From Chitinophaga pinensis (GTDB taxonomy: Bacteria; Bacteroidota; Bacteroidia; NS11-12g; UBA9320): a stretch of 44,697 bases of DNA. Of this stretch, positions 1-20,088 are shown piece by piece. Within the stretch, counting starts at the first letter, position 1. Every line of letters begins with the position of its first letter. The stretch spans positions 1 through 44,697 of the forward strand of contig CAMDSC010000019.1 of assembly GCA_945907065.1 (NCBI GenBank). The letters run 5' to 3'. The position numbers were made by a program, and so were the translations under genes. Below the pieces are notes generated by a model. It saw only the letters and a program-made list of their open reading frames with translations. It did not search any database and had not been told where the DNA came from.

Positions 1-426
1 AGACTGGTAACTCTTTTCATTAATTTCTTGCATTGTAGGATTATTTTTCAGTCTTGTTTTAATATCATTTGCTAAACAGAGTATACAAGGCTGAATAAAC
101 ATAATTCGATCCGAATATTCTTTGATGATTTTATTTTCAAAAACAAGACGACGCATGAAAATATATTCCTTATTGGGAATTCTACCAGTAACAATTTCTT
201 TGTTATCATTTGAAATTGTTTTAATATCTGTAAAGCCTGAATTATTTAAAAATTCATAGCTTTCATTTTGATTTAAATCTATCCAGTGTGGAGAAATAAC
301 AAAATTTAGGTATGATACCTCAGACTCTTGATTTATATAGAAATCTTGAGAAAATAAAGGATTTACCTTGAACAGTAAACAAATTGAAAAAATAAAGAAT
401 TTTAATTTTGTGTTGATTTTTTTCAT
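1..426 (-). CDS. Exported hypothetical protein, 3' end cut by window edge
   Basis: An open frame reads leftwards from an ATG at 426 and is still open at base 1, giving at least 142 residues. The first 27 residues form a signal peptide: Lys-rich start, hydrophobic stretch FFIFSICLLF, then a cleavage-like end at LFSQ/D. The rest is polar with a CILC motif (Cys114 and Cys117) that could bind metal or form a disulfide. I do not recognise a family. It lies on the same strand as, and downstream of, the tyrosine recombinase at 1106-2218, as does the small lipoprotein at 623-934, so it may belong to the same acquired segment. The C-terminus is unknown because the gene leaves the window. Confidence 0.7.
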   Translation of the reverse strand, partial: MKKINTKLKFFIFSICLLFKVNPLFSQDFYINQESEVSYLNFVISPHWIDLNQNESYEFLNNSGFTDIKTISNDNKEIVTGRIPNKEYIFMRRLVFENKIIKEYSDRIMFIQPCILCLANDIKTRLKNNPTMQEINEKSYQS

Positions 427-622
427 TCTAGGAACTTTTGTATTAATTTTTAAATGATTTATAGATTTTGTAAAAAAGATTATCTTTCTGATACTAACCA
501 ATAACTATAATGTTTCCCATTTGTATTTCCCTAAGAGATTTGAATCAAAAAGTTGCCTGAAAACTAAAATGCTTGGTATCCTTTCATTTCTGGTCTGCCG
601 TATTCGATTTTTGCTGTTTGAA

Positions 623-934
623 TTATCTATATCGTAAAAATTCATCTAATGATAATCGAGTATTATATTTCTCCACTTTATAAACTTTTTCATTTTTGTC
701 TATATACATAAATCCCACTACGCTTGGGTAGTGGTTTTGAGAATAATCTTCATAATAATAGACATAAATTTGATCACCATTTGAACTGTTAAGAATTCGG
801 CTTGGCGTACCAATTTTATTTAACATTTCGAATTTAGTATGACCCACTTGTTGCTTAAGCCCTAAGCATGAAGTTGCTGAAGCAATAAATAAAACAAGTA
901 TAAAAATAATAAATATTTTGATATTCTTTTTCAT
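623..934 (-). CDS. Small lipoprotein, possibly SmpA/BamE-like
   Basis: This 103-residue protein has a typical lipoprotein signal: a basic start, a hydrophobic run and the lipobox SATSC, so Cys23 would be lipidated. The mature part contains a VGHTKFEMLNKIGTPSRIL segment followed by YVYYYEDY. That pattern (a helix ending in a GTP or G.P turn, then beta-strands rich in Tyr) resembles the SmpA/OmlA fold of BamE-like lipoproteins. The similarity is by eye and weak. The gene is between the recombinase and the exported protein at the window edge, all on the minus strand, separated from each by 170-200 bases. It has no metabolic neighbours, which fits a cargo or cassette gene better than part of a pathway. 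Confidence 0.65.
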   Translation of the reverse strand: MKKNIKIFIIFILVLFIASATSCLGLKQQVGHTKFEMLNKIGTPSRILNSSNGDQIYVYYYEDYSQNHYPSVVGFMYIDKNEKVYKVEKYNTRLSLDEFLRYR

Positions 935-964
935 TTTTTTAAAATTTAGTTTGCTTACTCTGCT

Positions 965-1011
965 CGGTTTTCAGCTTTCCCCGTTTGCGGTTCGTTTTTC
1001 GAAGCTGACCG
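965..1011. repeat. Bulged inverted repeat (hairpin) beside recombinase gene
   Basis: Arms CGGT-TTT-CAGCTT (965-977) and AAGCTG-ACCG (1002-1011) pair over ten bases with a three-base TTT bulge on one side, and enclose 24 bases. A bulged stem of this type is the kind of structure recognised by some tyrosine recombinases (for example folded integron attC sites), but the integron consensus boxes are not matched. It could instead be a transcription terminator or a decayed repeat. Confidence 0.4.
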
Positions 1012-1017
1012 CTAACT

Positions 1018-1037
1018 TGTTTATACCCGATATAACA
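1018..1037. other. Candidate tyrosine-recombinase core site
   Basis: Arms TGTTTATA (1018-1025) and TATAACA (1031-1037) form an inverted repeat with one extra T, spaced by CCCGA. Short inverted arms of about seven bases around a five to eight base spacer is the usual core-site layout for tyrosine recombinases. It lies 69 bases beyond the recombinase stop codon. Assignment is inference. No second copy was found in the window. Confidence 0.35.
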
Positions 1038-1075
1038 CTTCGGTAAGCCTTCCAAATATAGGGAGATAACCGAAG
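1038..1075. repeat. Inverted repeat CTTCGGT/ACCGAAG, 24-base loop
   Basis: CTTCGGT (1038-1044) and ACCGAAG (1069-1075) are perfect inverted copies around 24 bases. The loop length equals that of the neighbouring bulged hairpin. It directly follows the core-like site and precedes the recombinase stop, so it could be a recombinase accessory site or a terminator. It lacks a U-rich tail on either strand. Confidence 0.4.
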
Positions 1076-1105
1076 GTTTGTATCGCATTACAAATGTATC
1101 TTTTT

Positions 1106-2218
1106 TCATAATAAATCAAATGGAGAGGTGATTTTTTGTAATTCCTTATTGCTTACATGGGTGTAAATTTCTGTGGTTTTACTACTGCTATGTCCAAGTA
1201 GTTCTTGTATATAACGTAAATCAGTGCCAGCCTCTAATAAGTGTGTTGCGAAGCTATGCCTCAGCCAATGTAATGTTACAGGTTTATTGATTTTGGCTTT
1301 TACTACACTTTGTTTTAAAACCAATTGCAAACTTCTTTCATCATATTTTTCCCCTAAATTTTGGCCTTCAAACAAATAATATTTTGGTTTAAATAACATA
1401 AAATAGTTTCTCAATAGAACTAATATTTTTAAGCTAAGGGGTGTTATCCTATCCTTTCTGCCCTTAGCTTGTTTAATTATTACCAGCCCTCTTTTTGAAT
1501 CAATATGTTCAGGTTTTAAATTTATTAACTCTCCACATCTCAATCCACAGCTATAAATCAAACTCAGCATAGCTTTATGCTTTATGTTCTTTGGAGCATC
1601 CAATATTGCTTTCACTTCCTCTTTGCTCAATACATTGGGCAACAGTTTTTCTCGTTTAGGCCTATGGATCAATTCCACATCCAAATTTCGGTTTTCTATT
1701 TGCCTAAAAAACAGTTTTAATGAATTGACGAACTGATTTTGGTAGGAGGATGATAGATTTTGCTTTAAAATATAGTCGGTATTAAAGTCAATAATATCTT
1801 GATTGGTTATTCCCTCTATTGGTTTTTGATAATGAAATTTCAAAAAAGTTTTTAAGGCTTCGGTATACGTATTAATAGTGCTTGGACTATACCGTTTGGA
1901 TTGCATCCATTTTATATAACTTTCAATTTTGGGCTTGGCAATGGTATTTATGTATTCATTTTTTGTGGCTTTGTCTTTTTCTGCATTCAATTGTGCCTTT
2001 AGTTGTTGGGCATCGATAACGCATAAAGGTGATAGCAATTTTTTTATTTCATGCAGTACCTCTATGCTATATGGTACATACCACGATTTTAAAGTTTGGC
2101 TCCACTTGCTAGTTTTGATAAGTTTTATAGCTTTAGTTAGCACAGTGTCGGCAGGGCTTTTTATAATTACAACCTGCTGCTGCCGGTGCAGGGATAAAGA
2201 AAGCTGGATAGTATGCAC
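1106..2218 (-). CDS. XerC/D-type tyrosine recombinase (integrase)
   Basis: Site-specific DNA recombinase of the phage-integrase family. From a GTG at 2218 it has 370 residues: an N-terminal segment with a WS.TLKSWYVP motif found in many Bacteroidota integrases, a SAM-like core-binding domain (about 97-190), then the catalytic domain. All catalytic residues are visible: R227 (GLRCGEL), K252 (KGRKDR), H317 and R320 (HWLRHSFAT), H343 (LLGH) and nucleophile Y352 (EIYTHVS). It ends SPFDLL, similar to the SPLD tail of integron integrases, but the extra IntI domain before HxxR is absent. The frame stays open upstream to 2371, but that extension is a low-complexity F/K/L-rich stretch, so I reject it. 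No tRNA or other known target is adjacent. The orphan genes to the left suggest a role in acquiring or rearranging them. Confidence 0.88.
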   Translation of the reverse strand: MHTIQLSLSLHRQQQVVIIKSPADTVLTKAIKLIKTSKWSQTLKSWYVPYSIEVLHEIKKLLSPLCVIDAQQLKAQLNAEKDKATKNEYINTIAKPKIESYIKWMQSKRYSPSTINTYTEALKTFLKFHYQKPIEGITNQDIIDFNTDYILKQNLSSSYQNQFVNSLKLFFRQIENRNLDVELIHRPKREKLLPNVLSKEEVKAILDAPKNIKHKAMLSLIYSCGLRCGELINLKPEHIDSKRGLVIIKQAKGRKDRITPLSLKILVLLRNYFMLFKPKYYLFEGQNLGEKYDERSLQLVLKQSVVKAKINKPVTLHWLRHSFATHLLEAGTDLRYIQELLGHSSSKTTEIYTHVSNKELQKITSPFDLL

Positions 2219-2230: not shown

Positions 2231-2431
2231 ATTTTTTTTTGATACATAAATTTTGTGAAGGAAGAATTTTTTAAAAAAGATTGAATAACGAAAGAAGATA
2301 TTAAAAAGTTGGGTAGTATTTAGCGGCTTAGGTAAAAAAAATAACAAACTTATTTGAAATAAAAACCCCAATATTGCGTTTTTTATTTAAAAAAACTGTT
2401 AATTGCATCTCCTTTTATAAAAATTAGAAAA

Positions 2432-3334
2432 ATGATTATCCGTAAGGTTATATTTATTACAGCATTATTTATTGCAGCATATAGCGCTGAGGCACAACGC
2501 TGGATGCGCGAAAGTTCTCTTGATTTTGGGTTAATGGTAGGAGGAAGTAACTACACCGGAGAACTTACCAATTACAAATTTTTTGAGCCTAAGAGTACTC
2601 ATTTTGCGGCTGGACTTCTTACCCGCTATAATGTTGGGCAACGACTTACTTTTAAGTTAGCTGCTACCCGAGGCAGCATTAGTGGCGATGATCAATGGTA
2701 TTCGGATATTGAAGAAAATCGATTGCGTAATTTGCATTTCAAAAGTATACTTTGGGATTTTTCTGGTGGGGTAGATGTTAACCTTCGTATGATTGACCGA
2801 GGAAAACAAAGGGGATTTGTACCTTATTTTACCACAGGTATTTCTGTTTTTAAATTCAATCCTCAAGCCCAATTTTTTTATGATGTTAATAGTCCTCACA
2901 ATACCGGTGTCAATGGATACCAAAATTTGACTGGCCGCGATGGAGAATGGGTTAATTTGCAAGCACTAAGTACTGAAGGTCAGCAAACGGCTCAATACAA
3001 TGACTTGAAACGCTACAGTCTTACTCAATTGGCAGTGCCGGTTGGGTTAGGTTTAAAATGTTATATGAACAAACACTGGATTGTAGCCTTAGAATATACC
3101 GTAAGAAAAACATTCACCGACTATTTGGATGATGTAAGCGGAAAATATGCCGAGCCTTTTTATATTGAAAGTCAGTATGGGCCAATAGCATCTGCCATGG
3201 CTGATCCATCTAGCCCCTTGCATGAACCCGGAACACTAAGAGGAAATCCTAAAAACAAAGATTGGTATTCAATATTTGGACTTAGCCTTAGTTACCGATT
3301 GGTTGCTAATAAGGTAAAGTGCTTCCAGTTTTAA
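2432..3334 (+). CDS. DUF6089 family outer-membrane protein (copy 1)
   Basis: This 300-residue protein has a signal peptide ending AYSAEAQ/R and a body of alternating short strands (GLMVGGSNYTGEL, FAAGLLTRYN, WDFSGGVDVN, PYFTTGISVFKF) typical of a small outer-membrane beta-barrel. The gene-specific blocks SNYTGEL, RNLHFKS, YVPF-like TTGISVF, FNPQA and RKTFTDYLDDVSG are those of the DUF6089 family, which in Bacteroidota commonly sits upstream of uppS and bamA as here. Its exact function is not known. It is 98 bases upstream of a paralogue and diverges from the recombinase. It carries an insert (FYDVNSPHNTGVNGYQ) that the second copy lacks. Confidence 0.85.
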   Translation: MIIRKVIFITALFIAAYSAEAQRWMRESSLDFGLMVGGSNYTGELTNYKFFEPKSTHFAAGLLTRYNVGQRLTFKLAATRGSISGDDQWYSDIEENRLRNLHFKSILWDFSGGVDVNLRMIDRGKQRGFVPYFTTGISVFKFNPQAQFFYDVNSPHNTGVNGYQNLTGRDGEWVNLQALSTEGQQTAQYNDLKRYSLTQLAVPVGLGLKCYMNKHWIVALEYTVRKTFTDYLDDVSGKYAEPFYIESQYGPIASAMADPSSPLHEPGTLRGNPKNKDWYSIFGLSLSYRLVANKVKCFQF

Positions 3335-3368
3335 TAAATTACACCTTTTCAAACCGCAATTTTTTTAA

Positions 3369-3376
3369 TACTTTTG
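3369..3376 (+). promoter_or_regulatory. Promoter -7 box before second DUF6089 gene
   Basis: TACTTTTG matches TAnnTTTG and is followed by CCG, the usual look of a Bacteroidota start region. It is 57 bases before the ATG at 3433, so the second DUF6089 gene, uppS and bamA can be transcribed apart from copy 1. Confidence 0.6.
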
Positions 3377-3381
3377 CCGTT

Positions 3382-3397
3382 TTACACCAAGGTGTAA
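3382..3397. promoter_or_regulatory. Palindrome at predicted transcript start (operator candidate)
   Basis: TTACACC-AA-GGTGTAA is an inverted repeat with perfect seven-base arms and a two-base spacer. It begins six bases after the -7 box, covering the expected transcription start. The spacer is too short for a stable RNA loop, so a dimeric repressor site is more plausible than a leader hairpin. No regulator is identifiable here. Confidence 0.45.
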
Positions 3398-3432
3398 CTA
3401 TGAGTTATATAACATCGTATATACTATAAATC

Positions 3433-4272
3433 ATGCCGAAAAGCATTTTAAAATCACTTCTCTTTTTAGCAGTATTTCTTACCGCAAATTTTTCATTTTC
3501 ACAAAAATGGGAAGTTGGAGGAATGCTAGGTGCATCTAATTATAATGGAGATTTGGCTCGCGAAATTGTTTTAAAAGAAAGTCATTTGGCAGGCGGAGCA
3601 TTTTTTCGCTATAACTTGGGTAAATATTTTTCATTAAAACCAACAATTCAGGTAGGTACAATAAGCGCAAGTGATAAAAATTTTAAGGAAAATAAATATC
3701 GAAATTTAAGTTTTAAATCAAATATAGCTGAAGTGGCTGCCATGATGGAATATAATTTTAAACCATTTGGGGCTCAGGTAAGAACAGAAAGTTTCACTCC
3801 TTATATTGAATTAGGGGTGGCCTTGTTTCATTTTAATCCAAAAGTTAAATATAATGGCGATTGGTTTGAATTGCATGCCATGCATACCGAAGGACAAAGT
3901 GCCAAGCAAATGTATAAACTAAACCAAGTTTCAATTCCCTTTGGAATGGGGTTAAAATGGTCGGTTAATAATAATCTTAGCGTAGGTTTTGAATTTGTAT
4001 ATCGCAAAACATTTACTGATTATTTGGATGATGTAAGTAAAACCTATCCCGATTTGCCCGAACAAGCAAAAAAATATGGTTCATTAAGTGCCTCACTTTC
4101 TGATCGCTCTGCCGAGGTAACCGCTGATGGCAAGCCTTTAAGTACTGTTGGAGATATGCGCGGCGATCCTGGACTTAAGGACTGGTATGTGTTTTCAATG
4201 TTTTCCTTTGCTTATCGCTTTACACCAATAATTTGCTGGCCTAATAAGCCATCTACTGTATGGGATTATTAG
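3433..4272 (+). CDS. DUF6089 family outer-membrane protein (copy 2)
   Basis: A 279-residue paralogue of the preceding gene. It has a signal peptide ending NFSFSQ/K, then GGMLGASNYNGDLA, NKYRNLSFKS, PYIELGVALFHFNP, EFVYRKTFTDYLDDVS and DWYVFSMFSFAYRF, each alignable to copy 1. It is predicted to be an outer-membrane beta-barrel. Its last 13 bases overlap uppS, and uppS overlaps bamA, so the three are almost certainly one transcript, tying the protein to envelope assembly. Its molecular role is unknown. The two copies differ mainly in the middle, where copy 1 has a longer loop, and in the C-terminal tail, which here ends IICWPNKPSTVWDY. Confidence 0.87.
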   Translation: MPKSILKSLLFLAVFLTANFSFSQKWEVGGMLGASNYNGDLAREIVLKESHLAGGAFFRYNLGKYFSLKPTIQVGTISASDKNFKENKYRNLSFKSNIAEVAAMMEYNFKPFGAQVRTESFTPYIELGVALFHFNPKVKYNGDWFELHAMHTEGQSAKQMYKLNQVSIPFGMGLKWSVNNNLSVGFEFVYRKTFTDYLDDVSKTYPDLPEQAKKYGSLSASLSDRSAEVTADGKPLSTVGDMRGDPGLKDWYVFSMFSFAYRFTPIICWPNKPSTVWDY

Positions 4273-9066: not shown

Positions 9067-12000
9067 ATGAATCCATTTTTTAAGAGTAAAAAACTCTTCA
9101 TTTTTATTTTACTAAGTTTAATTGGGTCCAATTCAATCAAAGCCCAAATATATCAAGGTACAGAGGCAAACAATAAGCTTAAAAATTCTGAGATAGTAAG
9201 AATAAATGAAATTACAGGAAAAATAAAATATGCTTTATTAAACGATAGATTTTTAATAACAAAAGAACAAACAATCCCTTATCTATTAAAGGTTTTGGAA
9301 CTGTCGAGTTCTTATAAATTGCAGTTAATTAAAACTGAACATGATGAAATTGGGTTTGACCATTTGCGATATCAGATATTGTATAATGAAATTCCAATTC
9401 TTGGAGGTATTATAATAACACACATAAAAGACCAAAGATTACATTCCTTTAATGGAGAAATATTTGGGGTATCAGAAGAAATAAATCAAAATTTATATCC
9501 AGAAAAATTTTGTTTATCTAAAGCGCTTGAAACAGTTGGTGCCAAAATTTATAATTGGCAATTGCCCGAAGAAGAGGCTTTGATTAAGGTTATAAAAGAC
9601 AACAAAAATGCCACCTGGTTTCCAAAAGGAGAGTTGATGTATTGTCCTAAAAATCTTGATTTTGACCAAGGCCAATTTACGTTAACTTACAAATTTACAA
9701 TTTATGCTAACGAGCCACTTTCGGCTGAAAATATTTATATAAGTCCAATAAGTGGTGAAATTATTGCTCGAGAAAATTTATTGCATAATGTAGATGTACC
9801 GGGTGTGGCAGTAACTAAATACAGTGGTACACGAAACATAAAAACCGATAGCACAGCGCCATACAAATACAGGTTAATAGAAAATTCAAAAGGTGGGGGT
9901 ATTTATACTTTAAATTTAAAGAAGGGGACAAGTTATGGTGCCGCAGTCGATTTTTTAGATTCAAATAATTATTGGAATAATGTTAATACAAATAAAGATG
10001 AAATAGCTACGGATGCTCATTGGGGAGCCGAAGTTACTTATGATTATTATTACAATATTCATAACAGAAAAAGTTATGATAATAAGAACGCTCGAATTTA
10101 TAGTTACGTTCATTATTCCAATAATTATGACAATGCTTTTTGGAATGGGGTATGCATGACTTATGGTGATGGAAATAGTTTCAAACCCCTTACAGCAATA
10201 GATGTTTGCGGACATGAAATAACCCATGCAGTAACTTCAAATACGGCTAATTTGGTGTATAGTTATGAATCTGGGGCATTAAATGAATCCTTCAGTGATA
10301 TTTTTGGCAATACAATTGAGCGATTTGGAAGGCCTACTCAATACAATTGGAAAATAGGAGAAGACATTACAACTGGCGCTACTGGATTACGCGATATGCA
10401 AAATCCAAAATCTAAAGGCCATCCAAGGTGCTATAAAAGCACCAATTGGTATGCTGGAGCGGGTGATAATGGCGGAGTTCATACCAATAGTGGAGTTCAA
10501 AACTGGTGGTATTATTTAATTACTGAAGGTGGCACAGGTGTAAATGATGTAACGAATACTTATAAAGTAGATAGCCTTGGCATTATAAAAGCGGAACAAA
10601 TAGCTTATAGAAATTTATCAGTATATCTAACAACTTCTTCTAATTATTCTGATGCCAGATTTTATTCCATTCGTGCTGCAGTGGATTTATATGGGAATTG
10701 CGGTAAAGAAGTAATTGCTGTAACAAATGCATGGTATGCTTGTAATGTTGGTCCTAAATATGATAGTGGTTATGTAAAAGCAAATTTTACTGCTGATACC
10801 GTAATTTGCAATACTTCAAAAAAAGTTAATTTTAATAATTTAAGCTCAAATGCTGTAAGCGTAAAATGGTATTTTGGTGATGGCTCCACTTCAACTGTAT
10901 TTAGCCCGGGTTATAATTATTCGTCCTTTGGAATTTATACTGTTAAACTAGTAGCTAAAAGTTGTTTTCTAAATAAAAGTGATAGTATTACCAAAGCGGC
11001 ATATGTTAAAGTAGATTCAACATTTGATATTTGCAATTCTGTATTAATGCCGCAAAGCGGAATTGATAGTACTAGCAAGTGTCAATCATTTGTTTATGAT
11101 GATGGCGGTGAGGGAATATATAAAACTCTGAACAAAACTATTCTAAAAATTAATGTTCCAGGGGCAGATTCAATAGTGTTGAAGTTTTTAGATTTTGACT
11201 ATGAGAACAAATTTGATAGTCTTTATATCTATAAAGGAACTTATCCCGGAGGCACCAAACTTGGCGGATTTACAGGTTCTACTTTACCCTTTGCTGGTAA
11301 AAATTTTAAAGTTGTTGGCAGCTTAATAACACTCCGTCATTTTGCCGACCCATTGGTCACTGGCAGAGGATTTAAAATGTTTTATACTGCTTACAAGCAA
11401 CCGGTGGATTTATCGGTTTTTAAAGATACCACAATTTGTATTGGTAATTCAGTGTTATTGCATGCCGAAGGAACAGGTGGTTATTTTAAAGATTATGCAT
11501 TTTTATGGAAAACCATTTCCAGCAATGATTCAATTACCGTATCGCCTATTGTGCCAACAGTTTATAAAGCCTACCTAACTGATGTTTGCACCAAATCAAT
11601 TGATTCTGCACAGATATTTGTGGACGTTAGAAAACCACTTTCTATCACTTTAAACAAAGACACCACTATTTGTATAGGTCAATCAGTAATAATAAATGGC
11701 ACGGCTTCAGGAGGGCAAAATACAACCTATCAATACACATGGAATAATGGATTGGGAAATAGTAGCAGTCATATAGTATCACCATCAGTTACCAGTCAAT
11801 ATCGTGTAATACTTTCTGACGGCTGCACATTATTAAATGATACAGCCTACATAAATGTAACAGTTAGAAATCCGTTAAATGTGAGTATAAAAACAAATGA
11901 TACATTAATTTGCTATAATAAATTGGTTAGTTTAAATGCTAACAGTTCAGGCGGGCAAAGCAGTAATTATTTATATACTTGGAATAATGGATTAGGAACA

Positions 12001-13587
12001 GGATTGCCCAAAATTATTAATTTAACAACTAACACTTGGATAAAAGTAACTTTAACAGATGGTTGCACTTCATTGCCATCCATAGATTCGGTTTATATAA
12101 AAGTAAGACCACAACTTACCGTTTTATTAAATAAAGATACTGTAATTTGTAAAGGGACTAGTGTATTATTAAAAGCAAACCCAAGCGGAGGTGATATAAG
12201 CAAGTATACCTATTCATGGACTCAAGGCTTGCCCTCAACCCAAACAAATACTGTGAATCCCGTAGTTAAAACCAAGTATATTCTATCGCTAACTGATAAT
12301 TGCTCAACCAAATCAGTTGATTCGATTACCGTAGATGTTTTGCAAAGCTTAAAAATAACGGGATTAAAAGATACGACAATTTGTTACGGTGGTAAGGCTT
12401 CATTCAAACCAATTATTACCGGGGGCAAACCATTGCTTTATCAATATATTTGGGATAATGGCTTGAACGGCAATAAAAATCAAACAGTTTCACCATTAAC
12501 AACAACAAGTTATAAATTACTACTAAAAGATAATTGCACCGTTTTTAATGATTCAATTACTGTGAAAGTAACACTTAAGGCAGCGCTTGTGCTGGGAACT
12601 AATTTATCAAAAGCTGTTATGTGTGTTGGTGATTCATCACGATTGTTACTTAATTTTTCTGGCGGAGTTCCGGCACAATACAAGTGGTTTATTAATGGAA
12701 TTCAGGAAACAAACTCGGCTTTGTTTTTAAAACCTATAATTACCACTGCTTACAAAATAAATTTAAAAGATTATTGTTCCAATGAAGACAGTGCTTTATT
12801 AAATATTGTTGTAAATCCTTTGCCAGTGGTTGATTTTTCCGCTGATAAATTAGCAGTTTGCAGATTCAATGAAGTTCAGTTTACCAACACCACAAGTGGA
12901 GCATCCAATTACTTATGGAAATTTAGTATAAGTGACCAAAACACATTAATATCACCAAAATACCTTTATAAAAAGGCCGGACTATTTGATGTAAGTCTTA
13001 CGGCAACTTCATCCAATGGATGTGTAAATTCATTAACAAAATCGGGATATATCACAGTTGTTGAATTGCCAAATAGCGATTTTACTTTTACACCAGATGA
13101 ACCAACTTTACCTTTACCCGAAGTTAATTTTGCCAATCTTTCAAGTAATTACAGCACGTTTGAATGGGATTTTGGCGATTTGAAAAAAGAGACATCAATT
13201 GTTAATCCTATACATACATACCCTGATAAGGGCGATTATAAAGTACGATTAATTGCCTTTAACTCTTTGGGATGTGCTGATACCATTATTAAAAATGTAA
13301 CCGTAAGTGACATTTATTATTTGTGGGTACCCAATGCTTTTTCCCCTAATAATGATGGATTTAATGATTCTTTATCTATTGTTTCAAAAGGTGTGGCTAC
13401 TTCTGAACTGGCCATCTATAACCGTTGGGGCGAAAAGATTTTTGAATCAAACCTTAATTCAAAAGCATTTGACGGGAAAGATAAAGACGGAAAAACATTG
13501 CAAAGGGGAAGTTATATGCTTGAAATCAAACTCAGAGATTTTACAGAACGGTTTCATATGGTGAGAACCGTAATCGAGATTTTATAA
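9067..13587 (+). CDS. Secreted M4 (thermolysin-like) metalloprotease with T9SS sorting domain
   Basis: Zinc endopeptidase exported by the type IX secretion system. From the ATG at 9067 (preferred to a TTG at 9049) it has 1506 residues. In order: signal peptide ending NSIKA/Q; FTP/PepSY propeptide (about 30-230); M4 catalytic domain with zinc-binding H383-E-I-T-H, third ligand E407 in GALNESFSD and the closing EVIAVTNAWYACNVG; PKD domain (about 570-640, WYFGDGS); CUB-like domain (about 674-775); six Ig-like repeats of 75-80 residues, each opening with DTxIC-type strands (about 780-1250); two more PKD-type domains; and a CHU_C/type-B C-terminal domain (WVPNAFSPNNDGFND, IYNRWGEKIFES). The protease probably matures by propeptide removal and remains cell-surface-linked or released. 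It is flanked by large spacers and is likely monocistronic. Substrate unknown. Confidence 0.94.
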   Translation: MNPFFKSKKLFIFILLSLIGSNSIKAQIYQGTEANNKLKNSEIVRINEITGKIKYALLNDRFLITKEQTIPYLLKVLELSSSYKLQLIKTEHDEIGFDHLRYQILYNEIPILGGIIITHIKDQRLHSFNGEIFGVSEEINQNLYPEKFCLSKALETVGAKIYNWQLPEEEALIKVIKDNKNATWFPKGELMYCPKNLDFDQGQFTLTYKFTIYANEPLSAENIYISPISGEIIARENLLHNVDVPGVAVTKYSGTRNIKTDSTAPYKYRLIENSKGGGIYTLNLKKGTSYGAAVDFLDSNNYWNNVNTNKDEIATDAHWGAEVTYDYYYNIHNRKSYDNKNARIYSYVHYSNNYDNAFWNGVCMTYGDGNSFKPLTAIDVCGHEITHAVTSNTANLVYSYESGALNESFSDIFGNTIERFGRPTQYNWKIGEDITTGATGLRDMQNPKSKGHPRCYKSTNWYAGAGDNGGVHTNSGVQNWWYYLITEGGTGVNDVTNTYKVDSLGIIKAEQIAYRNLSVYLTTSSNYSDARFYSIRAAVDLYGNCGKEVIAVTNAWYACNVGPKYDSGYVKANFTADTVICNTSKKVNFNNLSSNAVSVKWYFGDGSTSTVFSPGYNYSSFGIYTVKLVAKSCFLNKSDSITKAAYVKVDSTFDICNSVLMPQSGIDSTSKCQSFVYDDGGEGIYKTLNKTILKINVPGADSIVLKFLDFDYENKFDSLYIYKGTYPGGTKLGGFTGSTLPFAGKNFKVVGSLITLRHFADPLVTGRGFKMFYTAYKQPVDLSVFKDTTICIGNSVLLHAEGTGGYFKDYAFLWKTISSNDSITVSPIVPTVYKAYLTDVCTKSIDSAQIFVDVRKPLSITLNKDTTICIGQSVIINGTASGGQNTTYQYTWNNGLGNSSSHIVSPSVTSQYRVILSDGCTLLNDTAYINVTVRNPLNVSIKTNDTLICYNKLVSLNANSSGGQSSNYLYTWNNGLGTGLPKIINLTTNTWIKVTLTDGCTSLPSIDSVYIKVRPQLTVLLNKDTVICKGTSVLLKANPSGGDISKYTYSWTQGLPSTQTNTVNPVVKTKYILSLTDNCSTKSVDSITVDVLQSLKITGLKDTTICYGGKASFKPIITGGKPLLYQYIWDNGLNGNKNQTVSPLTTTSYKLLLKDNCTVFNDSITVKVTLKAALVLGTNLSKAVMCVGDSSRLLLNFSGGVPAQYKWFINGIQETNSALFLKPIITTAYKINLKDYCSNEDSALLNIVVNPLPVVDFSADKLAVCRFNEVQFTNTTSGASNYLWKFSISDQNTLISPKYLYKKAGLFDVSLTATSSNGCVNSLTKSGYITVVELPNSDFTFTPDEPTLPLPEVNFANLSSNYSTFEWDFGDLKKETSIVNPIHTYPDKGDYKVRLIAFNSLGCADTIIKNVTVSDIYYLWVPNAFSPNNDGFNDSLSIVSKGVATSELAIYNRWGEKIFESNLNSKAFDGKDKDGKTLQRGSYMLEIKLRDFTERFHMVRTVIEIL

Positions 13588-13659
13588 TATTCAAAATACA
13601 AATTCAACCCTTTACTTTTTATAAGACTTTCTTTTTTACTTTTACAAAAAGTTTATCAG

Positions 13660-14484
13660 ATGAAAGAAATCTTTGGTTTTGATGCCTTTTCACCAAAAGA
13701 AATTGCTGAACGGGTAGAAAATGTTGGCGTTGTAAAGGCTCGACTTCCATTGTTATCTATGACAATGTTGGGAATTCTTGCAGGCGTTTTTATTGGATTA
13801 GGGGCTTTGTATTTTGTGCTAATCTCCTCTGATGCAAGCCTCAGTTTTGGATGGAGCAGGCTATTGGGCGGCATTGTTTTTTCACTAGGTTTGATATTGG
13901 TTGTAGTTGCCGGTGCCGAATTATTTACCGGAAATAATTTATTGGTGATGGCTTGGGCTGACGGAATAATTTCATTTGAAGAAGTATTAAAAAATTGGGC
14001 TGTGGTATGTTTAGCTAATTTTATTGGGGCTTTTGGTTTTGCTATTATCGTTTATTTATCCAAACACCCCGACATGAATGGAGGTGCAGTTGGGGCACAC
14101 TATGTAAAAATAGCTGCCGCCAAATGTAATTTGTCGTTTCAGCAGGCTTTTTTTAGTGGTATGCTTTGCAATGTGTTGGTTTGTTTAGCTGTGTGGATGG
14201 CACAGGCAGGAAGAAGTGTCATTGATAAAGTCATTGTTATAATTTTCCCTATCTCGGCATTTGTAGCAGCGGGATTTGAGCATAGTATTGCTAACATGTT
14301 TTTGATACCAATGGGCATTTTATTAAAATCCCAATATGCTTCTGTTCCGGGATCTGACATGATTTCCTGGGCCGGCTTTTTTGATAATATGGTGCCCGTA
14401 ATTTTGGGTAACCTGGCAGGAGGAAGTCTTTTTGTCGCTTTAATTTATTATGTAATCTATGGTAGAAATAATCAAAAATCATGA
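13660..14484 (+). CDS. Formate/nitrite transporter (FNT) family channel
   Basis: Inner-membrane pentameric channel for small anions such as formate, nitrite or hydrosulfide. At 274 residues with six predicted membrane segments it is normal for the family. Signature segments are AGAELFTGNNLLVMAW, GGAVGAHYVK-type loop, GFEHSIANMFLIP with the central pore histidine, and PVILGNLAGGSLFVAL. The sequence alone does not separate FocA, NirC and other subtypes. No pyruvate formate-lyase, nitrite reductase or sulfite gene lies nearby to settle it. The next gene starts two bases after its stop, so the two are co-transcribed. Confidence 0.9.
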   Translation: MKEIFGFDAFSPKEIAERVENVGVVKARLPLLSMTMLGILAGVFIGLGALYFVLISSDASLSFGWSRLLGGIVFSLGLILVVVAGAELFTGNNLLVMAWADGIISFEEVLKNWAVVCLANFIGAFGFAIIVYLSKHPDMNGGAVGAHYVKIAAAKCNLSFQQAFFSGMLCNVLVCLAVWMAQAGRSVIDKVIVIIFPISAFVAAGFEHSIANMFLIPMGILLKSQYASVPGSDMISWAGFFDNMVPVILGNLAGGSLFVALIYYVIYGRNNQKS

Positions 14485-14485
14485 C

Positions 14486-15049
14486 ATGAAAAACTTAAAA
14501 CCAATTCTTCTTATTTTATTAACCGGAATTTTAACAAATTGCTATGCCTGGAACAAAGATTCAATGTTAAAAAGACAACATTTTGAAGTAAGTTTTGGTC
14601 AATCCTTGTTGTTTATTTCAAACAGCAAGCAGATTAATATTCGAAATCAAGCGGCTGTGGTAATACCCACCAATGCCGTTTTATTTTTTGCAGAATTTCG
14701 TCCTCAAAAAAAAATAAGAATCCCTGTATTTTTTAATTTAGCTACCGAAACCAAGCAGTTTTTAGTCAATAATCAAATAATAAGTGAACGGGCTTCACCT
14801 ACTTTTGGCACCGGTTTTACATACAATCTTTTTAAAATACAACTAGACTCCACCTCTAAAATTGAATTTGAGGTCGGGCCACTGGCAAGTGTATTATTCA
14901 ATACCAATAAAAACCTACGGGTAGCACCAATTATAGCAGGAAGATTTAGAATAATGCGGGGCAAAAATTTTGTAATGTATGCTGGAATGAGCTATTCCAT
15001 TGGCATCAATGCGTTGGGATTACTATACGGAACAGGAACGATATTTTAA
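14486..15049 (+). CDS. Exported hypothetical protein, probable small beta-barrel
   Basis: From the ATG at 14486, two bases after the FNT stop, it has 187 residues. An in-frame upstream ATG at 14459 lies inside the FNT gene and lacks a signal-peptide context. The N-terminus (LKPILLILLTGILTNCYAW) is an export signal; the Cys is close to a lipobox but the -1/-3 positions are poor. The rest alternates hydrophobic and polar residues (FEVSFGQSLLFIS, IRIPVFFNLATETKQF, PTFGTGFTYNLFKIQL, EFEVGPLASVLF, NFVMYAGMSYSIGI), which suggests eight or so beta-strands of an outer-membrane barrel. I do not recognise a named family. The location behind an anion channel hints at no clear function. Confidence 0.75.
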   Translation: MKNLKPILLILLTGILTNCYAWNKDSMLKRQHFEVSFGQSLLFISNSKQINIRNQAAVVIPTNAVLFFAEFRPQKKIRIPVFFNLATETKQFLVNNQIISERASPTFGTGFTYNLFKIQLDSTSKIEFEVGPLASVLFNTNKNLRVAPIIAGRFRIMRGKNFVMYAGMSYSIGINALGLLYGTGTIF

Positions 15050-15143
15050 AAATAAAACCGAAAAATACTCTCGTATCTTTTTCAAACTTGATCTAAGTTG
15101 TTTCTTAATATTATTTAATATTGTATCCTTTATTTTAAAGCTC

Positions 15144-15926
15144 ATGCAACCCATAAAAACCGTAGCCGAATATATGGCCGAAGGCCGAAGTCCTGAAATA
15201 TTATTCTGGGTGGGCTGTGCCGGAAGTTTTGACGAACGTGCCCAAAAAATAACCAAAGCATTTGCCAAAATTTTACAGCATTGCTCCATTGATTTTGCCA
15301 TACTTGGCCCTGAGGAAAGTTGCAGTGGCGACCCTGCAAAACGAGCCGGAAACGAATTTCTTTTCCAAATGCAAGCTGCTAATAATATTGCTGTGCTTAA
15401 TGCTTACGAAATAAAAAAAATAGTAACTGCTTGTCCTCACTGTTTTAATACCCTGAAAAATGAATATCCTCAATTGGGTGGAAATTACGAGGTGGTTCAT
15501 CATACTCAATTAATTCAGGAATTGATTAACAGTGGTAAATTAAAATTTGAAGGTGGTGCTTTTAAAGGTAAAAAAATAACCTATCACGATTCCTGTTATT
15601 TAGGTAGGGCAAACGACGAATATGTAGCTCCTCGCCGGGTTTTAGAAGCTTTGGATACCGAATTGGTAGAAATGAAACGTTGCAAGCAAAATGGGTTATG
15701 CTGCGGTGCAGGTGGTGCCCAAATGTTTAAAGAAGCCGAACATGGAACCAAAGAAATAAATATTGAACGAAGCGAAGAAGCTTTAGAAACAGGAGCAGGA
15801 ATTATAGCATCCAATTGCCCGTTTTGCATGACTATGTTGCAAGATGGAGTGAAACATGCTAACCGTGAAGATAATGTGCAAGTGCTTGATATTGCTGAGT
15901 TGGTGGCACAAGCTCAGGATTTATAA
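15144..15926 (+). CDS. CCG-domain (Fe-S)-binding protein, HdrB/GlcF/LutA-like
   Basis: From the ATG at 15144 (MQPIKTVAEYMAEG; an upstream open extension into the previous gene is AT-rich noise) it has 260 residues. It carries two cysteine-rich domains: WVGCAGSFD, EESCSGD, CPHCFNT in the first; HDSCYLGR, LCCGAGGAQ, NCPFCMTM in the second. This is the CCG pattern of heterodisulfide reductase subunit B and of the C-terminal half of glycolate and lactate oxidase Fe-S subunits, where it binds a non-cubane or 4Fe-4S cluster and carries electrons. The expected partner with an N-terminal ferredoxin domain is not adjacent in this window, so its redox partner is unknown. It lies seven bases before the next gene. 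Confidence 0.88.
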   Translation: MQPIKTVAEYMAEGRSPEILFWVGCAGSFDERAQKITKAFAKILQHCSIDFAILGPEESCSGDPAKRAGNEFLFQMQAANNIAVLNAYEIKKIVTACPHCFNTLKNEYPQLGGNYEVVHHTQLIQELINSGKLKFEGGAFKGKKITYHDSCYLGRANDEYVAPRRVLEALDTELVEMKRCKQNGLCCGAGGAQMFKEAEHGTKEINIERSEEALETGAGIIASNCPFCMTMLQDGVKHANREDNVQVLDIAELVAQAQDL

Positions 15927-15932
15927 TTATCC

Positions 15933-17126
15933 ATGAAACCAATTCTACTTCGGCGAGGATTAATTGGTGTTTTAATTTGTTTCGTTGTCCTAAATATTTA
16001 TAAAACTAAGAATCTTTACAATCATCCTGACTATCCTTACGATGCCCGAAATGTATTTATTGCAGGCAATCTTTGGTTACAAGGTAAAAATCCTTACAAC
16101 GACAGTTTACTAAAAACCGAATGGCAAAATAGTGCTATTCAAAATAATTTAAATACCACCAAACCTCCAGGGTTTAAGGATTGCGGAATGATTTATCCGT
16201 TTTGGGCTATCCCAATTTTAGTTCCATATTATCTGTTTTCATGGCCGGTGGCTAAACAAATAATTTGGCTTTTAAGTTGGCTCTTTATTTTTTTTATTGC
16301 TTGGTTCGCAACCAAATTATTTAATATAAAAGCTTTAAATTTTTGGTTATGGTTACTTATGATCTTGGCTTTTAAATCATCATTGGTAGCAGTAGCTTTG
16401 GGTCAGCCTTTATTGATGAGTATGGCGGCTATTATGGCTTCATGGTATTTTTATACTAAAAACAAAGACACTCTTTCTGGCTTATTACTTGGGATAGCTA
16501 TGCTAAAAGTAACGCTCTGTATTCCATTTGTAATTCTATTTTTGGCTAATAAAAAATGGAAACTCCTCATATTTTCAAGCATTTTTCCCATACTGGCAAC
16601 TTTCAGCTTTTATCAGGTTTCAGGAAATTTATATATCCCTGAAATGCTTAAAAATATGGCTACGCAAATGCAAATAAACTATGCGGGACCAACACTCACA
16701 GCGGTAAATACAAACCTTACTGAATTGGGTATTTTGTTAAATTATTTCGGAGGGATAGATTATAAATTTATTTCGGTGTTTAATGTAATTATGCTGTTTT
16801 TGGGCATCATCATTTTGGCAGGTTTTTATTTAAAAGGTTTTGTTAAAGAGTATTCCTTTTTAGCATTGCTTATTCTTTGGAACTTTCTATTTAGTTATCA
16901 CCTTATTTATGATTGTTTGCTTCTCGTTTTTTTGGTTCCGTTGGTTAAAACCAATGACAATATGAAATGGATTTGGCTCGCAGTATTAGCCCCATTATTT
17001 TTACCAATCAATGGAATTTTTAAAAATACAGACTGGATACAATTTCACCTTCCTATTACATTATTAGCTTTATTTTTGTACTTAGTTTATGCTAGCTACC
17101 AACACATCTCAAGCCGACGTATTTAA
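15933..17126 (+). CDS. Glycosyltransferase family 87 (DUF2029) membrane protein
   Basis: A 397-residue polytopic inner-membrane protein with about ten hydrophobic segments. The N-terminal block YPYDARNVFIAGNLWLQGKNPYND, placed after the first membrane helix, is the GT87/DUF2029 signature with the acidic residue expected of GT-C glycosyltransferases that use polyprenyl-phosphate sugars. It is related to actinobacterial PimE mannosyltransferases, but substrate cannot be inferred. It ends by overlapping the next gene by 38 bases. No cell-surface polysaccharide cluster surrounds it. Confidence 0.8.
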   Translation: MKPILLRRGLIGVLICFVVLNIYKTKNLYNHPDYPYDARNVFIAGNLWLQGKNPYNDSLLKTEWQNSAIQNNLNTTKPPGFKDCGMIYPFWAIPILVPYYLFSWPVAKQIIWLLSWLFIFFIAWFATKLFNIKALNFWLWLLMILAFKSSLVAVALGQPLLMSMAAIMASWYFYTKNKDTLSGLLLGIAMLKVTLCIPFVILFLANKKWKLLIFSSIFPILATFSFYQVSGNLYIPEMLKNMATQMQINYAGPTLTAVNTNLTELGILLNYFGGIDYKFISVFNVIMLFLGIIILAGFYLKGFVKEYSFLALLILWNFLFSYHLIYDCLLLVFLVPLVKTNDNMKWIWLAVLAPLFLPINGIFKNTDWIQFHLPITLLALFLYLVYASYQHISSRRI

Positions 17127-17595
17127 AGGTTTTAATCCCGATTCAAAAGTTTGGATTTATTCATCCAGCCGATTATTAACTGAGGATGAAACTGTTAATA
17201 TTAATTACCAAATACAGGCATTTACAAAGCAATGGACTTCTCATAATAATGCACTAAAGGCAGCAGGAGCGGTACTTTATAACAGGTTTATTATTTTATC
17301 AGCGGATGATTCGATTGAAAATCCAGGAGGCTGCAGTATTGATAAATCCATTCATTTTATTCAGGATATAGAAACCCGTTATAAATTGAATCTTTTTGAC
17401 AGGCTTACCATTTATTATGCTTCAGGAAACGAAATGAAATCGTTTCACTTTAACGATTTGCAAAACAAAATTGCTTCGGGAGAAATATCAGAAAATACTT
17501 TAATTATGGATACCACCATTACTCAAGTGGGTGCTTTGCAATCAGAATTTGTAAAAGAAGCCGGCCAAAGTTGGTTGGCAAGGTTTATTAAATAA
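17089..17595 (+). CDS. Conserved small cytosolic protein of unknown function
   Basis: This 168-residue soluble protein has no signal peptide or membrane helix. Landmarks are KVWIYSSSRLL, WTSHNNALKA, FIILSADDS and GGCSIDKSIHFIQ. Similar Bacteroidota proteins are often labelled ABC transporter ATPase, but no Walker A, Walker B or ABC signature is present, so I do not use that name. The GGCSID motif with its single Cys suggests a conserved functional site. It overlaps the GT87 gene by 38 bases and ends 10 bases from the convergent purQ. Confidence 0.75.
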   Translation: MLATNTSQADVFKGFNPDSKVWIYSSSRLLTEDETVNINYQIQAFTKQWTSHNNALKAAGAVLYNRFIILSADDSIENPGGCSIDKSIHFIQDIETRYKLNLFDRLTIYYASGNEMKSFHFNDLQNKIASGEISENTLIMDTTITQVGALQSEFVKEAGQSWLARFIK

Positions 17596-17605
17596 AGATA
17601 TTTTT

Positions 17606-18310
17606 TTATACGGCTACGGATTCCTGAGCCATATTAATAATGCTTTCAAAAAGGATTCGTCCATCATTATTAAACAAATTTTCATCGGCACAACGCTCCG
17701 GGTGAGGCATCATTCCAAAAACATTTTTACCAGTGTTACACACACCGGCTATACTATTTAATGAGCCGTTATGGTTGGCATCTTCCACTACATCACCATT
17801 TTCATTGCAGTAGTAAAATAGTACCTGATTATTGTCCAAAATTTGTTTCATGGTAGCATCATCGGCATAATATCTGCCTTCGCCATGGGCTATCGGAATT
17901 TTTAAAACCGCTTCCTTTTTTATATGATGAGTAATAGGTAAATCTGTATTTGCAGGCTTTAAAAATACATTGTTGCAAATAAATTTACGGTTGGTATTTC
18001 GCAATAAGGCTCCGGGCAATAATCCTGCTTCGCAAAGAATTTGAAATCCGTTGCAAATTCCCATTACAAATCCTCCGTTGGCTGCAAATTCACTTATACA
18101 TTGCATAATTGGGCTGTAACGCGCAATAGCTCCGCTTCTTAAATAATCACCATACGAAAATCCGCCGGGTAAAAAGATAAAATCACAATTTTTAAGGTCG
18201 GTGTCTTTGTGCCAAAGTTCAACCACTTCAGCACCTTTCAAGCTTTGTAAAACACTTATTAAATCATGATCGCAATTGGATCCGGGAAATATTACAACTC
18301 CAAATTTCAT
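17606..18310 (-). CDS. purQ: Phosphoribosylformylglycinamidine synthase, glutaminase subunit
   Basis: Class-I glutamine amidotransferase that supplies ammonia to PurL in step four of purine synthesis. The start at 18310 (MKFGVVIFPGSNCDHD) gives 234 residues, normal for a stand-alone PurQ. An upstream in-frame ATG at 18361 adds 17 residues atypical of the family and overlaps the leader palindrome. Catalytic Cys86 is in GICNGFQIL, and the His-Glu pair is in MMPHPER near the end. GGFSYGDYLRSGAIA is also conserved. PurS and PurL are not in the window, so the genes are dispersed. The leader carries a promoter and a palindrome (see 18345-18379). Confidence 0.94.
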   Translation of the reverse strand: MKFGVVIFPGSNCDHDLISVLQSLKGAEVVELWHKDTDLKNCDFIFLPGGFSYGDYLRSGAIARYSPIMQCISEFAANGGFVMGICNGFQILCEAGLLPGALLRNTNRKFICNNVFLKPANTDLPITHHIKKEAVLKIPIAHGEGRYYADDATMKQILDNNQVLFYYCNENGDVVEDANHNGSLNSIAGVCNTGKNVFGMMPHPERCADENLFNNDGRILFESIINMAQESVAV

Positions 18311-18344
18311 GTGATAATTTACTTCTATTTTTAAATTTATGTTA

Positions 18345-18367
18345 AATGAAATGCGTAGCATTTCATT
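18345..18367 (-). promoter_or_regulatory. Perfect 10-bp inverted repeat in purQ leader
   Basis: AATGAAATGC (18345-18354) and GCATTTCATT (18358-18367) are exact inverted copies around GTA. It begins four to five bases past the -7 box, so it spans the transcript start and the first 20 bases of the leader, 35 bases before the start codon. It could be an operator for purine control or a 5' stabilising hairpin. No PurR-type gene is present. Confidence 0.5.
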
Positions 18368-18371
18368 GCTG

Positions 18372-18379
18372 CAAAATTA
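18372..18379 (-). promoter_or_regulatory. Promoter -7 box of purQ
   Basis: The minus strand reads TAATTTTG followed by CAGC, an exact TAnnTTTG match 62 bases before the purQ ATG. Confidence 0.6.
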
Positions 18380-18385
18380 AGTTAA

Positions 18386-18418
18386 AACTTTTCCAAAGTT
18401 TGAAACTTTGGAAAAGTT
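18386..18418 (-). terminator. 15-bp perfect hairpin after AhpD-like gene
   Basis: AACTTTTCCAAAGTT (18386-18400) and AACTTTGGAAAAGTT (18404-18418) pair perfectly around a TGA loop. On the minus strand it lies 29 bases after the stop of the AhpD-like gene and is followed by TTTAACTTAATTTTG, so it probably ends that transcript just before the purQ promoter. Palindromes of this style recur between genes in many Bacteroidota genomes. Confidence 0.6.
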
Positions 18419-18447
18419 AATGAAAAAAGCGACCCTAAAAATTCGGT

Positions 18448-18789
18448 TTACTTTTCCAGCTCCTCCCAATATTCAGCCGCTCGGCGTGTATGGGGTATTA
18501 CTATGGTTCCTCCTACAATATTTGCTACTGCAAAGGTTTCAAAAACCTCAGCTTTCGTTACACCGTTTTCATAGCATTTACCCAAATGGTATTTTATGCA
18601 ATCGTCGCAGCGCAATACCATGCTGGCCACTAAGCCCAAAAGTTCTTTGGTTTTTACCGGCAAAGCCCCTTCAGTATAAGTATTGGTGTCTAAATTAAAA
18701 AGGCGTTTTAACACTAAATTATCACCAGCCATTATGGCTTCGTTGCCTTTGGTGCGGCCTTCGTTGAATTCTTCTACTTGATTTTTCAT
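18448..18789 (-). CDS. Carboxymuconolactone decarboxylase / AhpD-like protein
   Basis: A 113-residue all-helical protein of the CMD/AhpD family. The key segment RCDDCIKYHLGKCYENG carries the CxxC pair and downstream His found in AhpD-type disulfide reductases, followed by EVFETFAVANIVGGTIVIPH. The redox CxxC makes peroxidase-related thiol chemistry more likely than a decarboxylase role. The length fits a single-domain family member. It is 21 bases downstream of the exported amidohydrolase-like gene on the same strand and may be read with it. No peroxiredoxin gene is adjacent. Confidence 0.85.
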   Translation of the reverse strand: MKNQVEEFNEGRTKGNEAIMAGDNLVLKRLFNLDTNTYTEGALPVKTKELLGLVASMVLRCDDCIKYHLGKCYENGVTKAEVFETFAVANIVGGTIVIPHTRRAAEYWEELEK

Positions 18790-18810
18790 AATTTTAAATG
18801 CGATGAGATT

Positions 18811-20088
18811 TTACTCTCCAAAATATTTACTCCTGAATTTTTTATCCAATTGCTTTTGGCTGTTATCTAAATTTATTTCCCGGCCATCAATCCATGCACG
18901 GGTAACTTTAGAGGTTTTCATATCCAAAATATCTCCTTCACTTATAAATAGGGTGGCACTTTTGCCTACTTCCAATGTTCCATAATTTTTATCAATCCCT
19001 AAAATTTCAGCGGCATTTTTGGTAATGGCCATCAGGGCTTGTTCGCGAGTAAGTCCAAAAGCCACGGCCGTTCCGGCTTGAAAAGGTAAATTGCGTTGTT
19101 GCCATGCTCCAACATCGGCTATGCAATACAAAACCCCTGAATCGTGAAGTATTTTTGGAAGTTTGTAGGGTAAATCCACATCATCCTCAGGTAAGGATGG
19201 TAAATTGTGGGTCCGAATTAAAACCAATGCAATTTTATTTTCTCTTAAAAATTTGGGTATTAAAAAACTTTCATCGCCGCCAACTATAATAGGTGTAATG
19301 CCATAACGCTGCATAAACTGCACTGCACTTATCATTTCCCTGGCCCCATCGGTATGAATAAATACTTTCTTTTTAGCTGAAAAAATATCTTTAAAGGCTT
19401 CCAATTTTAAATTGAGAATATCAGGTTTACTGCTACAGTATGTTTTGGCATTGCTAAAAATTTCATCCAACGCCTTTATTTCTTTATCCACCTGCAGTTT
19501 TTCTATATCTCCCGGTTCGGTCCACCAGCCTTTTTGTACATGCATTCTCGGCCAGTTCAGGTGCAAGGCATCATCCGTTTTTATTGCTGCATCTTCCCAA
19601 TTCCATGCATCCAATTGCACAATGGATGAATTACCCGAAATGCTTCCGCCCGTTGGGGTTAATTGGGCTAAAAGAATTCCATTGCTGCGAATAGTAGGGG
19701 TAATTTTTGAATCGGTATTGTAAGCAATTATACTTCGTATATTGGCATTGTTTTCCCCTACTTCATTATAGTCACGGGTAGAACGAATTGCATCAATTTC
19801 ATTAAGTCCAATGTTAGTATTAGGGGCTATTAATCCGGGATAAACGTGTTTTCCTTCGGTATTTATAATTTCATAAACTGTAAAATCCTGGTCTTTAAAA
19901 AATGTGTCTATTCTTTCAATTTGTCCATTTCTTAACATAACATCGGCATATTTAAAAACATATCCATTACCAACATGAACCGTTGCTCCTTTAATTAAAA
20001 GAGGTTTAACGGAAAGCTTGCTTGGGGTTGGCACTTGTGCTTTGGCTATGGTGGAGAATAATAATATTCCAATTAATATTTTTTTCAT
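18811..20088 (-). CDS. Exported amidohydrolase-family protein with lost metal-binding HxH
   Basis: A 425-residue protein with signal peptide (LIGILLFSTIAKAQ) and the composite beta-sandwich/TIM-barrel layout of imidazolonepropionase-like amidohydrolases: LLIKGATVHVGNG, MLRNGQIERI, YPGLIAPNTNIG, IFIHTDGAREM-type block, ALMAITKNAAEILGIDKNYGTLEVGKSATLFI. The canonical metal motif LIDxHxH reads LIAPNTN, with Asn90 and Asn92 in place of both histidines and the Asp gone. Catalysis by the usual binuclear site is therefore unlikely. It lies next to a second, larger amidohydrolase gene on the same strand, whose first half is also degenerate, so it may be a non-catalytic partner of that protein's active half. 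Confidence 0.86.
   Translation of the reverse strand: MKKILIGILLFSTIAKAQVPTPSKLSVKPLLIKGATVHVGNGYVFKYADVMLRNGQIERIDTFFKDQDFTVYEIINTEGKHVYPGLIAPNTNIGLNEIDAIRSTRDYNEVGENNANIRSIIAYNTDSKITPTIRSNGILLAQLTPTGGSISGNSSIVQLDAWNWEDAAIKTDDALHLNWPRMHVQKGWWTEPGDIEKLQVDKEIKALDEIFSNAKTYCSSKPDILNLKLEAFKDIFSAKKKVFIHTDGAREMISAVQFMQRYGITPIIVGGDESFLIPKFLRENKIALVLIRTHNLPSLPEDDVDLPYKLPKILHDSGVLYCIADVGAWQQRNLPFQAGTAVAFGLTREQALMAITKNAAEILGIDKNYGTLEVGKSATLFISEGDILDMKTSKVTRAWIDGREINLDNSQKQLDKKFRSKYFGE

Follow-up and report, generated by a model that had tools for sequence, protein, structure and literature searches.

Sedentary chromosomal integrons, as described in Vibrio, Xanthomonas, and others, combine the integrase IntI with an attI site in which crossover falls at G^TT, and they hold cassettes of variable content in one orientation, each with a hairpin attC whose R'' and R' boxes pair. 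In the integrons of Treponema, the integrase is described as intI and is transcribed towards attI, in the direction of the cassettes, according to a passage of PMC3607928. An excerpt of PMC9024848 names an integron of Salinibacter ruber and a Bacteroidetes In0, both from the Bacteroidetes in the broad sense, as is the present genome; excerpts of PMC8618304 and PMC2426708 count Bacteroidota or Bacteroidetes/Chlorobi among the groups that carry integrons. According to the literature, cassette recombination needs an IntI-specific domain, the IntI insert, and survey tools recognize integrons by it: in the relevant passages, the archaeal-integron paper calls it necessary and IntegronFinder demands a match to it (both PMC9668308), and PMC2426708 retained only proteins that have it. 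Because these surveys require the domain, as worded in those passages (PMC9668308, PMC2426708), enzymes such as the ones described here are expected to be missed.

We analyzed a window of 44,697 nucleotides that covers contig C19 of its genome (G000) completely, with a contig end at base 1. The window very probably holds part of a chromosomal integron of non-canonical type, namely the end with the integrase, and, judging from sequence comparison, this type occurs in several Bacteroidota. Like the sedentary IntI integrons, it has an integrase with an attI and G^TT crossover, one-orientation cassettes, hairpin attC sites with pairing R'' and R' boxes, and variable content. Unlike them, its integrase lacks the IntI insert, stands apart from IntI-like proteins in a tree, and has an extra N-terminal domain; the integrase gene points towards attI, and the attC sites are spread over many contigs. 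The direction of the gene is shared with the Treponema integrons of the passage cited (PMC3607928), which differ in phylum and in the insert that is absent here. What appears to be new is the enzyme type, its occurrence in several Bacteroidota, and a set of stand-alone platforms; in the open literature, preprints aside, we recognized no report of insert-less integrases with cassettes in Bacteroidota. Insert-less enzymes on textbook cassette arrays make the insert rule testable, suggest that integrons are under-counted in Bacteroidota, and offer a possible second way of recognizing a folded single-stranded site.

Layout of the window

The original prediction described a complete tyrosine recombinase with two small genes downstream and core genes on the other side, and this arrangement holds. 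The recombinase, a putative non-canonical integron integrase of 370 amino acids, is encoded at 1106 to 2218 on the minus strand, from a GTG start that was chosen by comparison with relatives. It matches Phage_integrase and a SAM-like domain, and its catalytic residues are kept: in an alignment of 14 members, R227, K252, H317, R320, and H343 are invariant and Y352 is nearly so. In the same orientation follow a 103-amino-acid gene in the first cassette position (623 to 934, minus strand), whose N-terminus we read as lipoprotein-like, and an exported-looking gene that is open at the contig end (1 to 426, minus strand). Several cassette genes elsewhere in the genome's arrays also have N-termini that we read as export-signal-like. 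Beyond the integrase, on the side away from the small genes, the chromosomal flank begins with a leader and DUF6089 gene (2334 to 3334, plus strand; the leader is kept in G004 from about 2334); the DUF6089 genes at 2432 to 3334 and 3433 to 4272 are followed by open reading frames that we read as uppS and bamA. The stretch from 2432 to 4272 holds tandem DUF6089 outer-membrane-barrel paralogues upstream of a uppS-like gene, and the tandem pair is found in same-genus genomes too. No integrase match was found on the contig of the DUF6089 orthologue in any of five same-genus genomes (G001 to G005), and the sequence upstream of their DUF6089 loci differs from that of the window.

Both spacers between these genes had been predicted to be structured. 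This is true of the one beside the integrase, which folds better than its shuffles (935 to 1110; z -2.27 and -2.73), but not of the one between the small genes (502 to 640 folded; z +1.17). From cassette starts in related loci, the cassette of the 623 to 934 gene would begin at 1015. No attC was found between the two small genes, and the gene at 1 to 426 would lie either in the same cassette or in a later one whose attC is lost. Some features of the window count against the integron reading: no closed cassette is visible, the first being unclosed at the contig end, and this cassette would carry two genes with nothing structured between them. With filters off, no attC was found within the window (best E 0.29). 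Since the contig stops at base 1, the array is untraceable any further to the left, and among a set of the genome's own contig ends that were compared, none overlaps this end by at least 15 nt. By eye, the first attC of contig C29 agrees over 9 nt with the start of the window's cassette, which makes it a possible but unproven continuation.

The original prediction had named conservation of the small genes in relatives as an argument against cassettes. What we found across 28 other genomes was no intact match to the 623 to 934 gene, with two stop-ridden fragments only, and no match to the 1 to 426 gene; in addition, in the parts of their surroundings that were listed, the integrases of G003, G004, and G006 have neighbors unlike the window's, from a reading of translations. 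Neither this counter-argument nor the other one named in the original prediction, a single prophage or ICE without the repeat to the left, materialized. In the own genome, a weak, stop-ridden match to the 1 to 426 gene lies at G000:C33:9573-9788 (E 0.001).

attI, the putative cassette promoter, and the cassettes

The attI (about 1010 to 1078, minus strand), which lies beside the integrase gene, is an imperfect palindrome followed by CGGGTATAAACAAG^TTA, with a GTTRRRY-like core; the crossover, between 1016 and 1015, was deduced from cassette starts elsewhere. The core occurs once in the window, allowing up to 3 mismatches, and its exact 21 nt are in no viral_contigs record. The original prediction took the element at 960 to 1080 for a repeat between genes; that idea had to be dropped, as the element is the attI, an insertion site, present once in the window and once more in the genome. 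The second copy lies on contig C27 (97% over 95 nt; found nowhere else in the genome), behind roughly the final 20 codons of the integrase, with an in-frame stop among them. Downstream of it come a small lipoprotein-like gene, then CCGCTAAC, and then a long imperfect palindrome and GTTATG, where the contig ends. The 9-nt sequence ACCGCTAAC is reverse-complementary to the opening bases of the cassette after attI, which makes this a closed, attC-bearing cassette. The window and C27 match at 59/60 nt to the left of the core and, after about 11 shared nt, at 15/49; the window and G003 match at 54/60 nt and then at 25/56. In both comparisons, the homology of the platform falls off at the attI core.

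A putative cassette promoter overlaps the end of the integrase gene. Its -33 box (TTTG; 1117 to 1120, minus strand) lies within the last integrase codons, those for SPFD, and its -7 box (TACATTTG; 1091 to 1098, minus strand) follows with 18 nt between boxes. The arrangement TTTG-N16-22-TAnnTTTG is a promoter type of Bacteroidota. With kin sites counted as independent and the stop position assumed for five of the 28 sites, it spans the integrase end in 10/28, window included (shuffle mean 0.1, maximum 2), and the -7 box by itself is found in 14/28 (shuffles 2.4, maximum 7). TAnnTTTG also occurs in passages of Flavobacterium papers. Such a promoter, overlapping the integrase 3' end, would drive the first cassettes.

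The search for cassettes covered 29 genomes, own included. Fourteen have a strong integrase match (E below 1e-50), several of them at contig ends, and many C-terminal-only fragments occur besides. Scanning for R''/R' pairs without an attI anchor gave mostly chance-like matches among those listed and was replaced by an anchored test, in which the reverse complement of the cassette's first 9 nt recurs downstream ahead of a hairpin. This test was positive at 14 of 22 attI sites, two of which (L039 and L069) have weak arms. Eight attI sites have no attC partner: for six of them, the contig ends within 1.3 kb (the window, 1,016 nt; G003:C111, 1,224; G015, 1,271; G021, 141; G006:C7, 149; G027, 90), and two are partnerless despite room (G003:C176, 3,610 nt; G001:C30, 16,096 nt), which counts against the integron reading. 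Chaining from cassette to cassette brought the attC sites to a total of 22, of which some rest on 7-nt matches, and G006:C12 holds a full integrase gene, attI, and 4 consecutive cassettes. In platform copies and relatives, cassettes start at G^TT in attI and share one orientation, and each is closed by a folded attC with an R'' box that is reverse-complementary to the bases at the start of the same cassette; first cassettes differ between close relatives.

Beside integrase-like genes of the GTDB collection, an automatic version of the test was run on 79 of 80 loci, of which 68 had enough sequence (11 were under 300 nt). It passed 15/68 loci and, at the same thresholds, 12/459 random windows, the latter counted without sifting by eye. 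By eye, 13 of the 15 are clean, and L100 and L119 pass the thresholds and look like chance. Clean loci include those of Algoriphagus ornithinivorans DSM 15282, Flavobacterium aciduliphilum DSM 25663, and an Aquiflexum sp. In Flavobacterium enshiense DK69 (L115), missed by the automatic test, ten attC-model matches lie at 11723 to 19542, downstream of the integrase; this integrase falls in a neighboring tree group and is also without the IntI insert.

A consensus fold of 16 attC sites has compensatory changes in 16 of its 19 pairs. The unpaired stem positions are 1x1 mismatches here, whereas the attC sites of IntI systems have extrahelical bases in the stem. A covariance model was built from the 16 sites, which came from six of the 29 genomes, and was applied to at most 115 candidates per genome. 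It reports 19 sites in the own genome, including the C27 site that had been used to train it, and sites in 24/29 genomes, own included. All 14 genomes with a strong integrase match have attC matches (224 in total); 10 of the 15 without one still have such matches (46 in total), which counts against the integron reading. Rfam at gathering scores gave no match in four loci. Cassettes as a reading of the locus, proposed in the original prediction, are borne out by the second attI with its closed cassette, by the 19 own attC sites, and by relatives that have attI with chained cassettes; the cautious title of that prediction is correct.

In 5/7 pairs of neighboring attC sites of the own genome, R'' complements the preceding R' exactly, and in the remaining 2 pairs it does so at 7 of 8 bases; among pairs drawn between contigs, 9/316 are exact and 40/316 match at 7 or more bases. 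When all upstream sequence of the same stretch is considered, 10 of the 19 sites have an exact 8-mer partner, which for two of them is not at the neighboring site. One cassette is common to G000:C29 and G026:C41, which belong to different families of the order (90.6% identity over 1449 bp). Gapped identity is 110/121 columns to the right of the attC core and 50/126 to the left; the ungapped counts (17/60 left, 22/60 right) show no contrast because of an early indel. The shared cassette encodes a 1060-amino-acid exported-looking protein (L227, 704 to 4050, on G000:C29; L079 from 11712 onwards).

By analogy with IntI, the integrase would recombine double-strand attI with the folded bottom strand of attC, and such attI x attC recombination would allow cassettes to be captured and shuffled.

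The integrase and its N-terminal domain

The first 65 or so residues (2024 to 2218, minus strand) form a predicted bb-a-bb-a domain with a conserved KW...W motif (alignment of 14 members). Their HARP-like look was noted ahead of any fold search. As the best 50 matches of a whole-enzyme fold search were recombinases only, the N-terminus was folded by itself; residues 1 to 62 are predicted as strand-strand-helix-strand-strand-helix (mean pLDDT 87.4 for this isolated piece). The predicted fold of residues 1 to 75 resembles the XPB damage-recognition domain (2fwr; Z 6.3, 2.0 A over 57 residues) and SMARCAL1 HARP (4o66; Z 4.5, 1.7 A over 48), in a comparison in which Z under 8 may reflect merely a common arrangement. 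Foldseek places both among the best matches with E 0.13 to 0.38, none significant; unrelated folds (aIF1/eIF1, MotA, YciH) score about equally, with Z 5.4 to 6.0 for aIF1/eIF1 and MotA. Pfam HARP (PF07443) is listed for 2/14 members (best E 0.0058). The likeness to HARP and the XPB domain, which extends to the KW...W motif, is weak and suggestive only. Such a domain might help to bind hairpin or forked DNA, substituting for the absent IntI insert.

A tree of 86 proteins places the window integrase inside a 24-row group with support of 100/100 and outside the group formed by six IntI-like rows (96/99); with only these six IntI-like rows and a bootstrap that is not fully settled, the tree does not say how the two groups relate. 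Of 22 rows labelled cassette-associated, 5 fall outside the 24-row group, and the label "attC" was given to the window, L043, L044, and L045 from their attI only. Two integrase relatives are labelled outside Bacteroidota, L121 (a Spirochaetota MAG) and L114 (an Undinarchaeales MAG), through binning error or transfer; L121 also passes the attI/attC test.

In a rival reading, the locus is simply a canonical IntI integron in a new host; it shares the attI core, the attC rules, and the logic of its cassettes with such integrons, and Foldseek with the whole protein ranks IntI4 (2a3v) beside XerA at the top. The IntI-specific additional domain near patch III is absent by motif distance and by TIGR02249, as the original prediction had stated. 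In the window integrase, the LRH motif stands 94 residues from the first catalytic Arg motif, compared with 134 to 135 in five IntI-like proteins and 116 in the sixth; the distance is 93 to 94 in most attC-adjoining relatives (98 in L102), and in many Xer-like proteins as well. On TIGR02249 (cut-off 265), the window integrase scores 208 bits and five relatives score 206 to 217, against 394 to 479 bits for the five of six IntI-like proteins scored. Together with the parting of the two groups in the tree and the extra N-terminal domain, these differences make a known IntI in a new host unlikely. The missing insert could also suit an ordinary Xer-like or phage-type recombinase that neighbors unrelated small genes by chance, in keeping with a window that has no attC and with 217.1 bits on the XerA model NF040815, just under the curated cut-off of 220. 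That cut-off is passed by 4 of 5 other members tested, and the NCBI name of the model already reads "recombinase/integron integrase." For the catalytic part, XerA-type recombinases (NF040815; PDB 5hxy and 4a8e) are among the best matches in both sequence and fold, but the match starts at residue 96 to 98, past the N-terminal domain, and we know of no attC arrays for XerA. For the integrase family, a chance neighborhood is already contradicted by relatives that adjoin attI and chained cassettes, by the copy of the platform in the own genome with a complete cassette, and by the 224 attC matches in 14 strong-integrase genomes against 46 in the other 15 (with a model trained on some of them), and for the window it is very improbable. 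A non-canonical integron integrase remains our reading of the enzyme.

Integrase tails with attI

Eight copies of the integrase tail were found in G001 (on C31, C14, C30, C55, C8, and C51 and at both ends of C4), with unrelated sequences upstream and 83 to 100% identity to the query where aligned. In our reading they seem to fall into classes with a common left end, and the copies on C14, C30, and C55 (L036, L065, and L066) have about 75 nt upstream in common that look like an IS end (TTGTCCTAAAATAGGTTTACAC); because of these features, the G001 tails look copied. Five of them show attI, and at three of these five a closed cassette starts. In G019, an assembly of 7 contigs, attI-like sequence matches at five places. 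An integrase gene accompanies two of them, in one case with an internal stop; a third has an integrase remnant together with four chained cassettes; and the remaining two have no integrase sequence in the match, one of which chains weakly.

We read the tail-only loci as promoter-attI platforms that would be served in trans, and a promoter motif inside the integrase end may explain, as a plausible reason, why a tail would travel with attI. The same loci could be dead remnants of whole integrons with a decayed integrase gene, a serious contender that falls somewhat short of probable. Remnants would agree with the larger, stop-ridden integrase pieces in G004 and G016, with tail lengths that vary between genomes, with the in-frame stop in the C27 tail, and with attI sites that lack a partner on G001:C30 (16 kb) and at G019 C3:54921 (none in 9 kb). 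They fit less well with the look of copying in the eight G001 tails (unrelated upstream sequences, left ends shared within classes, three of them IS-end-like), with the closed cassettes that start at three of the five G001 tails that have attI, and with the C27 copy, in which promoter motif and attI are both preserved. A broader proposal combines the platforms with the enzyme: a separate integron type of Bacteroidota, in which a HARP/DRD-like N-terminus on a Xer-like enzyme replaces the IntI insert for folded attC and in which one integrase in trans serves several copied platforms, each made of integrase 3' end, embedded promoter, and attI. As a whole, we regard this proposal as tentative and rather doubtful.

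A 51-amino-acid "array-terminal gene" that we had considered proved wrong; its place is taken by a palindromic mobile element with CAAACTGTCTAAAAAC ends and CCGT flanks at attC crossover points. Such elements lie in L063 (G001:C31) at 9608 to 9731, 16695 to 16819, and 17498 to 17611, in L064 at 9524, and in L071 at 19654, where we read a putative IS1182-type transposase start behind a CAAACTGTCTAAAAAC end. These palindromes may be a mobile element with attC sites as its target.
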